This document shows positions 30,934-34,541 of a stretch of 64,000 bases of DNA, piece after piece (positions within the stretch are counted from its first letter, which is position 1; each line of letters starts with the position of its first letter). The translations under genes and the position numbers were made by a program. The notes under the pieces were generated by a model. That model was not told the origin of the DNA and did not search any database. It saw only the letters and a list, made by a program, of their open reading frames with translations. Source of the stretch: Leucobacter chromiisoli. Its GTDB lineage: Bacteria; Actinomycetota; Actinomycetes; Actinomycetales; Microbacteriaceae. The stretch covers positions 124,001-188,000 of the forward strand of contig NZ_JAEHOH010000006.1 in NCBI RefSeq assembly GCF_016522505.1, read 5' to 3'.

Positions 30934-30941
30934 GTGTGCTC

Positions 30942-32093
30942 GTGGCAGCAATCAATCTGGGAATGCCGAAGGTGCCCGAGGTCCTCGCACCGCGGCGCAA
31001 GAGCCGGCAGATCAAGGTCGGCAAGGTGTCGGTCGGCGGAAACGCACCCGTGTCGGTGCAGTCGATGACCACGACGCCGACGACCGACATCAACGCGACC
31101 CTGCAGCAGATCGCCGAGCTCACGGCGTCCGGCTGCGACATCGTGCGCGTCGCCTGCCCCTCGCGCGACGATGCCGAGGCGCTCCCCATCATCGCGAAGA
31201 AGAGCCAGATCCCGGTCATCGCCGACATCCACTTCCAGCCGAACTACGTCTACGCGGCGATCGACGCCGGATGCGCCGCCGTGCGCGTCAACCCGGGCAA
31301 CATCCGCAAGTTCGACGACCAGGTCGGCGAGATCGCGAAGCGCGCCAAGGCCGCCGGCGTCTCGCTGCGCATCGGCGTGAACGCCGGGTCGCTCGACCCC
31401 CGTCTGCTGCAGAAGTACGGCAAGGCGACCCCCGAGGCCCTCGTGGAGAGCGCGGTCTGGGAGGCGTCGCTGTTCGAGGAGCACGACTTCCACGACTTCA
31501 AGATCTCGGTCAAGCACAACGATCCGATCGTCATGGTGAAGGCCTACCGCCTGCTCGCCGAGCGGGGTGACTGGCCGCTGCACCTCGGCGTCACCGAGGC
31601 CGGCCCCGCGTTCCAGGGCACCATCAAGAGCGCGACCGCCTTCGGCATCCTGCTCTCTGAGGGCATCGGCGACACGATCCGCGTCTCGCTCTCGGCCCCG
31701 CCGGTCGAGGAGGTCAAGGTGGGCCTGCAGATCCTGCAGTCGCTGAACCTCCGCGAGCGCAAGCTCGAGATCGTGTCCTGCCCCTCCTGCGGCCGCGCCC
31801 AGGTGGACGTCTACACGCTGGCCGACGAGGTCACGAAGGGCCTCGAGGGCATGAGCGTGCCGCTGCGCGTGGCCGTGATGGGCTGCGTGGTGAACGGCCC
31901 GGGCGAGGCCCGCGAGGCCGACCTCGGCGTCGCGAGCGGCAACGGCAAGGGGCAGATCTTCGTGAAGGGCGAGGTCATCAAGACCGTGCCCGAGAGCGAG
32001 ATCGTCGCCACGCTCATCCAGGAGGCGAACCGCATCGCCGACGAGATGGGCGCCTCCGCGGGCACCGGGGCCCCCGAGGTCGTCGCCGTCTAG
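30942..32093 (+). CDS. ispG: (E)-4-hydroxy-3-methylbut-2-enyl-diphosphate synthase
   Basis: IspG converts MEcPP to HMBPP in the MEP pathway with a [4Fe-4S] cluster. The 383-residue product begins [26 protein letters not shown] and has [30 protein letters not shown]-type barrel motifs, [14 protein letters not shown], and the cluster region [13 protein letters not shown] (cysteines near 280 and 283) with [11 protein letters not shown] (cysteine near 315). The coding sequence is complete. Its stop codon TAG lies inside the target duplication of the IS481 element and is shared with the antisense stop of the transposase. Confidence 0.97.
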
Positions 32094-32094
32094 A
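32089..32094. repeat. Target-site duplication TCTAGA, left copy
   Basis: TCTAGA here and at 33158-33163 flank the IS directly. It fits the NCTAGN target known for IS481. The copy contains the ispG stop codon (32091-32093) and, on the other strand, the transposase stop (32090-32092). Confidence 0.9.
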
Positions 32095-33064
32095 TGTATT
32101 GACCTCGACCGTTGTTGATTCGGTCGATGGGGGACTTTCCGCCGATGCCGAGGTGGGCTCTGTCTAGGTTGTAGTGATCGAGCCAGGGCGTCAATCCTGC
32201 TCGGCGCTCGTCGTTGGAGGTCCAGGGGTGGGCGTAGGCCCATTCGGTCGCGAGGGTCCGGTTGAGGCGTTCGACTTTCCCGTTCGTCCAGGGGCAGTGG
32301 GGTTTGATGAAACGCTGCCGGATGCCGTGGGCATCGATCACGTTGCGGAACGCGGTCGAGTGGCGGTAGGCGAATGCGTTGTCGCTGATGACGCGCTCGA
32401 CGGTGACGCCGAGGCCCGCGTAGAACGCGATCGCGCGTTCGAGAACGCCTGCGGCCGTGGCGCCCTTCTCATCGTCGTGGATCTCGGCGTAAGCGACCCG
32501 GGAGTGATCGTCGATGACGGTGTGGACGTAGTCGTAACCCAGTCCCCGCTTGCTGCTGGGTCGTTCGCCGCGGCCGTGCAGACGCCACCCGCCGCCGTCA
32601 GGGATACGGCCGAGTTTCTTCACGTCGACGTGGATCAGGGAACCGGGATGGTCGTGCTCGTAGCGCTGCGCGGAACGGCGGGTGGCGCGCACCACCGTCC
32701 CGGTCACCGGGTCCAGCTCCCGCAGCAGCGGCGTCCGGTGGCGGCGCAGCACACGTCCGACGGTCGAGGCGTGCATACCGAGCTTGCTCGCGATGAACAC
32801 CGGCCCGCGTCGGGTGAGGTGCCGCATGATCCGCGCCCGCGTCTCCATGCACGGGACAGTGCGGTGCGGGTGGGCGTGAGCGACGCTGGAGCGGTCGATC
32901 AACCCAGCCGGCCCCTGCTCGCGGAACCGTCGCCACCACCGCCACGCGGTCGTGCGAGAGATACCCATCTCTGCCGCGACGTGCGCGACTGCACGACCCG
33001 ATTGGATGTGCTGGACAAGGATCAACCTGCCGGCCGGAGCCAGCCGGGCATTACCGTGGGACAC
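32090..33064 (-). CDS. IS481-family transposase
   Basis: A 324-residue DDE transposase. An N-terminal helix-turn-helix region (about 1-60, [21 protein letters not shown]) is followed by the rve-type catalytic core: first Asp in [14 protein letters not shown], second in [12 protein letters not shown] and the Glu in [15 protein letters not shown], then [18 protein letters not shown] at the C-terminus. The start is GTG 33064 with GGAGG 6 nt upstream. The stop TAG is not within the element but is completed by the target duplication. The ribosome binding site lies in one arm of a 13-bp inverted repeat. Confidence 0.95.
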
Positions 33065-33157
33065 GAGAGACCTCCGTGTGAACGAGCAGGGGAACTAGAC
33101 AGCTCCAACTCGACTACGGAGGTCTCTCCTACGTCAACAACGATCCGAGTCAGTACA
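32095..33157 (-). mobile_element. Complete IS481-family insertion sequence, 1063 bp
   Basis: The ends are 24-bp inverted repeats with 19 matches (32095-32118 and 33134-33157), both beginning TGTA and ending GTTGTTGA. A perfect 6-bp direct repeat TCTAGA lies outside both ends. One transposase gene runs from the right end to the left end and out into the flanking DNA. Intact ends, an intact reading frame and an exact duplication suggest a recent insertion. Confidence 0.95.
33065..33128 (-). promoter_or_regulatory. Inverted repeat that could mask the transposase ribosome binding site
   Basis: GAGAGACCTCCGT (33065-33077) and ACGGAGGTCTCTC (33116-33128) are perfect 13-bp arms. A transcript entering the element from outside on the minus strand would fold here and hide the GGAGG of the transposase, while one starting inside the loop would not. 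Confidence 0.65.
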
Positions 33158-33163
33158 TCTAGA
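33158..33163. repeat. Target-site duplication TCTAGA, right copy
   Basis: Identical to 32089-32094. It follows the terminal TACA of the right inverted repeat. Confidence 0.9.
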
Positions 33164-33275: not shown

Positions 33276-34541
33276 CTAGGCTGCGCGGGAGGCGCTCGCG
33301 GCGCACGCCTCCTCGACGAGGTCGATCGCCGCGCCCTCGGCGCGCGATGCGCGCTGGCCCGCGGCGCGCATGAGCGCCGGGAGGTCGGCGAGGCTCGACC
33401 GGACCCAGTCGGGGACCTCGTCGCCCTCGCACAGCGCGAGGCAGATCGCGAGGCCCCACCGGTCCACGAGCCGGCGCAGGGGTGCCGTGACGTGCGCGTA
33501 GGGCGCGGCGAGCGCGGCCTGCGTCGTGAGCTCGGGAATCGCGCCGTCGAACGGCGTGTATCCCGCGCCCCGGAAGAGCGAGGTGGCGGCCTCCAGGATC
33601 TCCATCCCGCGCGGGGCGGCAGGATCGACGCCGCGCAGGTAGTCGCCGTAGCGCACTCCCGCCGCCCAGGGGGAGCCGATCTCGGCCACCTCGGCGCGGA
33701 ACCTCGCGAGCGACGCCTCGTCGGGCGCCGGCATGGTGCGCAGAATGCCGACGCCGCCCGAGAGCATGATCCCGGCGGCCGCCATCCCCGTGAGCAGCGA
33801 CAGCTGGGCGTTCCACTCCTCGACCGGCAGGGGGCTGCGGCGTTCGATCCGGTACCCGTCATCGGGGTCGACCACGACCTCCTCCTCGGGCATGGGCAGG
33901 CTCGCGCCGCCCCGGGCGCGCTCCTGACCGATCCTGAGCTCTCCCACGACCCGCAGCAGCTCCAGCTGCTCGTCGTGCCGGCCCGCGTCGATCTCCGCCT
34001 GGGCGCCGGCGTAGTCGCGCTGCTCGCGCGATCGCACGAGCGCGCGCTCGACTCTCGCCGAGGTCTGCGCGCCCGCGGCGTCGAGCTCGATCGTCCAGAC
34101 GAGCGCAGGCCGGTCCTCACCCGCGAGCAGCGAGGCGCGGCCCTCGCTGAGCGTGCGCGGATGCAGCGGGATCGAGCCATCCGGCAGGTAGATCGTCTGC
34201 CCGCGGCGGCGGGCCTCGGCGTCGACGGCCCCGCCCGGGCGCACGAAGCCGGGCACGTCGGCGATCGCGTACCGCACGGCGAAGCCGGAGCCCGCGCGTT
34301 CCAGGTGGAACGCCTGGTCGAGATCCCGTGAGCCCGCGGGGTCGAGCGTCGTGAAGGGGATCTCGCGCAGGTCGAGGCCCGGGGGCTCGACGGCGGCGGA
34401 CTCGGCCTCGGCGAGGGCCTCGGGGGAGAACCCCTCCGGCAGGTCCAGCTCGCCGCGCAGTTCGCTCAGACGGGCTTCGAGCGACGCTCGCTCGCTCGCG
34501 ACGCGCGGGTCGCGGGTCAGGGAGAGGTGCCGTTGGGGCAT
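33276..34541 (-). CDS. RNB-domain ribonuclease (RNase II/R-like), single-domain form
   Basis: The 421-residue protein is essentially the RNase II catalytic domain without recognisable cold-shock or S1 domains. The metal site reads DPAGSRDLDQA (Asp67, Asp73, Asp75), with Gln76 where E. coli RNase II has its fourth aspartate. Later motifs are YAIADVPGFV, GQTIYLPDGSIPLHP, NAQLSLLTGMAAAGIM and AHVTAPLRRLVDRW. It should be a 3'-5' exoribonuclease, but the missing acid and the lack of RNA-binding domains make substrate and activity uncertain. Its promoter is divergent from the LOG gene. Confidence 0.85.
   Translation of the reverse strand: MPQRHLSLTRDPRVASERASLEARLSELRGELDLPEGFSPEALAEAESAAVEPPGLDLREIPFTTLDPAGSRDLDQAFHLERAGSGFAVRYAIADVPGFVRPGGAVDAEARRRGQTIYLPDGSIPLHPRTLSEGRASLLAGEDRPALVWTIELDAAGAQTSARVERALVRSREQRDYAGAQAEIDAGRHDEQLELLRVVGELRIGQERARGGASLPMPEEEVVVDPDDGYRIERRSPLPVEEWNAQLSLLTGMAAAGIMLSGGVGILRTMPAPDEASLARFRAEVAEIGSPWAAGVRYGDYLRGVDPAAPRGMEILEAATSLFRGAGYTPFDGAIPELTTQAALAAPYAHVTAPLRRLVDRWGLAICLALCEGDEVPDWVRSSLADLPALMRAAGQRASRAEGAAIDLVEEACAASASRAA

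Follow-up and report, generated by a model that had tools for sequence, protein, structure and literature searches.

Does an insertion sequence choose its target because the target supplies a stop codon? This question is raised by an IS481-family element that lies on the stop codon of ispG, an essential gene of the MEP pathway, in Leucobacter chromiisoli. We analysed the locus within a 64,000-nt stretch of the genome (the window), and its features are collected in Table 1. The final codons of ispG, GTC TAG, fall within the left copy of the duplicated target TCTAGA. The transposase, read on the minus strand, has the final codons TAC ATC TAG. The element ends with the A of ATC; the TC of this codon and the TAG are both supplied by the same left copy. 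The frame of the transposase is thus open through the final base of the element, and its TAG starts two bases outside (hereafter, the +5 stop). A single CTAG, not two, terminates ispG and the transposase, which are arranged tail to tail. An earlier sequence-only reading had described an IS481 element that has no stop of its own, takes one from the duplication that also ends ispG, and leaves the ispG frame full-length; each of these points is borne out by the codons, domains and repeats of the locus. TCTAGA occurs in the window only at the two sites flanking the element, and two matches are not above the chance expectation (mean 2.42); the evidence for the duplication is the position of the copies, not their count.

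Table 1. Features of the element at the ispG stop and of its surroundings (window coordinates)
Feature	Position	Strand	Remarks
Left target copy TCTAGA	32089..32094	.	CTAG at 32090-32093 stops ispG (+) and transposase (-)
Right target copy TCTAGA	33158..33163	.	From the sequence
IS481-family insertion sequence, 1063 bp	32095..33157	-	Pfam, inverted repeats, exact duplication
Transposase gene, 324 aa, GTG start	32090..33064	-	TAG at 32090-32092 belongs to the host target
Terminal inverted repeat, transposase 3' end	32095..32118	-	Encodes the protein tail
Terminal inverted repeat, transposase 5' end	33134..33157	-	
ispG (GcpE), complete	30936..32093	+	TAG stop inside the left target copy; Pfam GcpE, E 1.6e-141
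Neighbour with RNB (ribonuclease) domain	33276..34541	-	Convergent with ispG
Leader hairpin, 5' arm	33116..33128	-	
Leader hairpin, 3' arm	33065..33077	-	Contains GGAGG ribosome-binding site, adjoins GTG start

The boundaries of the element follow from its inverted repeats together with the exact duplication; copies in close relatives have identical boundaries and an identical +5 stop. The inverted repeats are imperfect: the terminal sequences TGTATTGAC... and TGTACTGAC... agree in 15 of 20 positions, and complementarity reaches 84% over a pair of 31-nt arms in which the duplication is included. Both repeats start with TGT, which is typical of terminal inverted repeats in the IS481 family and is displayed by the relatives analysed here too. 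The transposase matches Pfam rve, rve_3 and LZ_Tnp_IS481, all above cut-offs, and its residues D147, D228 and E265, which we take to be the catalytic triad, are invariant across 11 sequences. The TCTAGA on both sides is a target duplication of the IS481 type, stated to be 6 bp in most members of the family (PMC10045372). The element has an intact transposase frame and is present as one full copy in the genome (3.35 Mb, 42 contigs); near-identical copies in a relative occupy many sites.

The ispG case is a fresh example of an arrangement that is already published. For IS481-family transposases of Leifsonia, a stop within the duplicated NCTAGN was stated in 2008 (PMC2516522), and the same source ascribes it to other family members as well, citing a 1998 paper on Tn5564. 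ISLxc2 and ISLxx4 of Leifsonia xyli thus resemble the window's element in family and in having the transposase stop in the NCTAGN host site, although ISLxc2 is 1105 bp long and carries a premature in-frame stop; the available text of PMC2516522 does not describe, for either of them, a site that also stops a host gene. In Rhodococcus equi, CTAG was reported in 2019 to give stops to the ISRe46 transposase and to some target genes, which are hence uninterrupted (PMC6794481). As described there, TnRErm46 shares with the window's element an IS481 transposase, an NCTAGN duplication and a target TAG serving as the transposase stop, and the target TAG also ends genes such as parB, which remain intact. 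It differs, however, in being a 6.9-kb transposon with cargo, and the transposase and the target gene are served by copies at opposite ends, whereas at ispG one copy serves both (PMC6794481).

Among the elements compared is that of Microbacterium lacticum DSM 20427 (L065 and others), with an 88% identical transposase, a length of 1064 bp, similar ends and the same +5 target stop. In M. lacticum and M. ihumii genomes, all 40 of the 40 candidates listed at 1064 bp are full-length matches. The M. lacticum element has a high copy number and a TTG start (L065, L066), whereas the window's element is a single full copy starting with GTG. ISBcen26 of Burkholderia (plasmid record NZ_CP022081.2), from another phylum and 38% identical across the matched part, likewise belongs to the IS481 family and has TAG at +5, in GCTAGC.

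To see where the transposases of relatives stop, we searched 54 genomes of the genus, 398 of the family and a named genome collection, which together with fetched copies yielded 219 loci. A near-complete transposase was found at 201 of them, and 127 had both ends and a 6-bp duplication under an end-finding rule that asks for the duplication and for agreement at no fewer than 12 of 20 repeat positions. These represent 126 distinct places, L095 and L156 being one place counted once. Ends located on one side only (61 of the 201) were placed via CTAG and were therefore excluded from the target counts, their tail type being used in the tree; no end was found at 13 of the 201. The stop lies at +5 in the target in 94 of the 126 distinct places (93 TAG, 1 TAA). 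In the remaining 32, the frame stops inside the element, 5 to 23 bases short of its end (31 TGA, 1 TAA). These self-stopped elements (e.g. L007, L175, L182) belong to the same family and have similar ends and a CTAG target, and differ from the window's element in the internal stop.

Multi-copy genomes were added to this tally, namely M. lacticum and M. ihumii (target-stopped) and G375 (self-stopped), with only those copies kept whose flanks matched, 36 of 42 in the M. lacticum group and 10 of 32 in G375. In total, 156 distinct copies have an exact 6-bp duplication. Among the 117 target-stopped copies, the core of the target is CTAG in 113, CTAA in three and TTAG in one; among the 39 self-stopped copies, it is CTAG in 38 and TTAG in one. 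A phylum-wide and plasmid sample of 33 loci gave 15 resolved elements, of which 13 (the window's included) are target-stopped, all at CTAG, and two are self-stopped, the target being CTAG in the first and GTAG in the second. In a relative from Microbacterium sp. YJN-G, the annotated CDS extends into the target. The rule of the target-supplied stop is not absolute, as right ends without a stop occur in L134, L169 and a contig-end copy in the window's genome. In G375, at least 40 near-full-length matches of a self-stopped IS481 element were observed (L304-L333), and the non-matching flanks of 22 of its 32 placed copies suggest rearrangement.

The window's genome contains both kinds of tail. A second IS481 element (L002-L004), represented by the right ends of three contig-end copies, is self-stopped with TGA; its tail reads ...SRLRPTP-stop, the stop lying 9 bases before the element end, and the three right ends are followed by GCTAGG, GCTAGC and TCTAGC. 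A different frame of this tail reaches the target TAG, which suggests that the distinction between the two tail kinds is one of reading register. A third element (L387, L388), seen at two contig ends, is target-stopped: in one copy the stop is provided by an adjoining GCTAGA, and the other copy adjoins TCGAAG and has no stop there, its frame continuing into host DNA. A weaker match is also present on contig 11.

How the two tails are related to each other was assessed in a tree built from 122 transposases, 90 of them target-stopped and 32 self-stopped, whose last 12 residues were left out. Tail kind changes only twice on this tree, versus 28.5 times in shuffles. The 32 self-stopped sequences and one target-stopped sequence form a clade with 85% support, which is joined with 98% support to an adjoining target-stopped clade containing the window's element, values at which the precise history of the tail kinds is not firm. 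Throughout the self-stopped clade the target stays CTAG. Since both this clade and the second element of the window's genome keep CTAG, the comparison indicates a target preference that holds independently of the stop, and a stop that exploits this preference.

These data bear on two other accounts of the locus. The frame might simply happen to lack an early stop in the window's copy, the TAG being coincidental, and open frames are indeed frequent at about 71% G+C. This candidate was ruled out by the recurring +5 register, which repeats in the 94 of 126 distinct places of the survey and in 13 of the 15 resolved elements of the phylum-wide and plasmid sample (window included), ISBcen26 being among the 13; we give it virtually no chance of being correct. 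The sequence-only reading had instead suggested that CTAG targeting is under selection, its advantage being a stop for the transposase and an unharmed host gene. As many as 117 of the 156 copies take the stop of the target, all four off-consensus targets of target-stopped copies retain a stop (TAA or TAG), and the sparing of the host is genuine at stop-codon sites. Yet self-stopped copies are equally strict on CTAG (38/39 compared with 113/117), and this strictness holds across the clade with the 32 self-stopped sequences and within the window's genome, where the second element has an internal TGA and nonetheless CTAG after all three right ends. The tail kinds are separated by two changes on the tree while the target is constant. 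Moreover, the target TAG lies outside the +5 register of the transposase in most self-stopped places, namely those with the stop 9, 12, 18 or 21 bases ahead of the element end. The off-consensus targets are uninformative, as the lone off-consensus self-stopped copy has the same CTAG-to-TTAG change: off-consensus sites are half-site changes (TTAG, CTAA) in both kinds, and retention of a stop in target-stopped copies therefore needs no selection. We thus consider selection for the stop very unlikely, although an ancient link between target and stop may have existed, because the target-stopped kind is the majority and is spread over the tree. The same reading had pointed to other copies and to family members as the place to look for internal stops. 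No internal stop was found in the element itself, its sole full copy and nearest relatives using the stop of the target; sister elements do have internal stops.

It could also be that insertions are steered to gene ends, or survive best there, beyond what the CTAG tetramer explains, the insertion at ispG being an instance; this would be compatible with a constant target preference. CTAG is about 11-fold rarer in the window's genome than expected from base composition (113 sites in 464 kb versus 1238), and the share of these sites on gene stops ranges from 13% to 41% depending on the method. A crude gene caller assigned 15 of 113 to stops, 44 to gene interiors and 54 to intergenic regions; a simple open-frame rule put 42 of 102 at gene stops; and frame competition classified 107 as 39 stop, 2 inside-like and 66 other, the three methods differing most in the inside count. 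According to the crude caller, 39% of CTAG lies inside genes, versus 68-74% for GATC, CATG, GTAC, AGCT, ACGT and GGCC, with A+T-rich words likewise low (TTAA 18%, TATA 40%, ATAT 47%). When frame competition was applied to 3000 random positions, 946 looked inside genes and 657 appeared as 'stop' through frame phase alone. Of the distinct insertions, 60 of 150 lie on gene stops (41/113 target-stopped, 19/37 self-stopped), as judged with a codon model trained on the window's genome. This does not differ from the CTAG background of the window's genome (39/107, p = 0.60); compared with CTAG in the flanks of the same loci (15/150 on stops), insertions are enriched (Fisher p 1.8e-9), the sampled flanks being short stretches in the vicinity of the insertions. 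Once the two multi-copy groups are set aside, the remaining mixed set has 51/107 insertions on stops versus 8/107 flank CTAG (p 2.4e-11), which reflects either a biased control or a real favouring of gene ends. No enrichment relative to flanks was detected within the M. lacticum group (3/33 versus 2/34) or G375 (6/10 versus 5/9). The two backgrounds thus disagree on the stop-codon excess, and steering or better survival at gene ends, while possible, strikes us as rather unlikely. Self-stopped elements strike stops no less often than target-stopped ones, which lends no help to the idea of selection for the stop. In 22 of the 113 target-stopped insertions, the transposase and a host gene meet tail to tail on a single CTAG as they do at ispG (19, and a further 3 with a gene to either side).

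The ispG loci of the genus were examined as well, 30 being read (the window's included) from 51 same-genus genomes with a match. The stop is TAG in 20, TGA in nine and TAA in one. CTAG is found at the ispG stop in 7 of the 30 loci, or in 6 of 29 without the window. A convergent RNB-domain gene lies 218 to 582 bp downstream of ispG in 12 of the 29 other loci and was not detected downstream of ispG in the other 17. These sequences are compatible with an old CTAG stop of ispG, being no proof of an empty site.

Taken together, the locus very probably represents an ordinary IS481-family insertion, in which the target preference is constant and the use of the stop is built on it. The transposase would insert at NCTAGN and duplicate 6 bp; such duplications are seen in many copies, and the action of the enzyme is as expected from what is known of the family. 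Near-universal landing on CTAG, combined with the fixed register between frame and element end that is observed directly, would place a TAG two bases outside the element. With a TAG there at nearly every insertion, the element would need no stop of its own. Using the target as the stop would then be one of two tail solutions atop a constant target preference, as the tree suggests. ispG would have come through intact because its original CTAG end was restored by the insertion. Frequent insertions on stop codons in the window's genome may just mirror where CTAG remains, and some added steering or better survival at gene ends may be superimposed. The site CCTAAC is given for IS481 of Bordetella pertussis (PMC3053399).

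The head of the transposase gene displays a second conserved feature. The two arms of the leader form a perfect 13-bp inverted repeat, and the leader including this hairpin is predicted to fold at -44.6 kcal/mol (z -2.67), 2 of 200 shuffles folding as well. Perfect arms of 9 to 15 bp are present near the start in 76 of 85 distinct leaders, representing both tail kinds, and there are 43 distinct 3' arms over all 85 leaders. When 67 leaders of lower mutual similarity, again of both tail types, were aligned, 9 of the 11 hairpin pairs showed changes on both sides. Two-sided changes fill 66 cells, versus 24.1 in shuffles and 5 to 21 for a slid helix, the helix having been defined from one aligned sequence and hence being favoured over its slid versions; cells able to pair amount to 90.6% versus 83.8% in shuffles. 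On these comparative grounds, the IS481 elements studied share a predicted covarying hairpin over the ribosome-binding site of the transposase. IS10 and IS50 are protected against outside transcripts, and the IS481 leader hairpin may resemble their protection. The leader structure of ISPpu9, said to belong to another family, has reportedly been studied. An internal CTAG of the element (33094-33097) is located in the loop of the leader hairpin and is a possible self-target.

Both ends of the transposase gene might be tied to the integrated state, the stop being gained only upon insertion at CTAG, CTAA or TTAG and the hairpin over the ribosome-binding site shielding the head from transcription that enters from the neighbourhood. 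The target would then impose a mild quality control on the copies, without having been chosen for it. We regard this as unlikely; if true, a copy landing at any other site would produce a lengthened protein and might fare worse. Comparison of the two tails makes the idea of a target chosen for its stop testable, and the idea is so far unfavoured. Many IS481 genes have their final codons in host DNA, which calls for caution in annotation. Finally, the ispG locus shows how an element can occupy the stop of a housekeeping gene and leave that gene intact, as CTAG is scarce in this G+C-rich genome and is often itself a stop codon.
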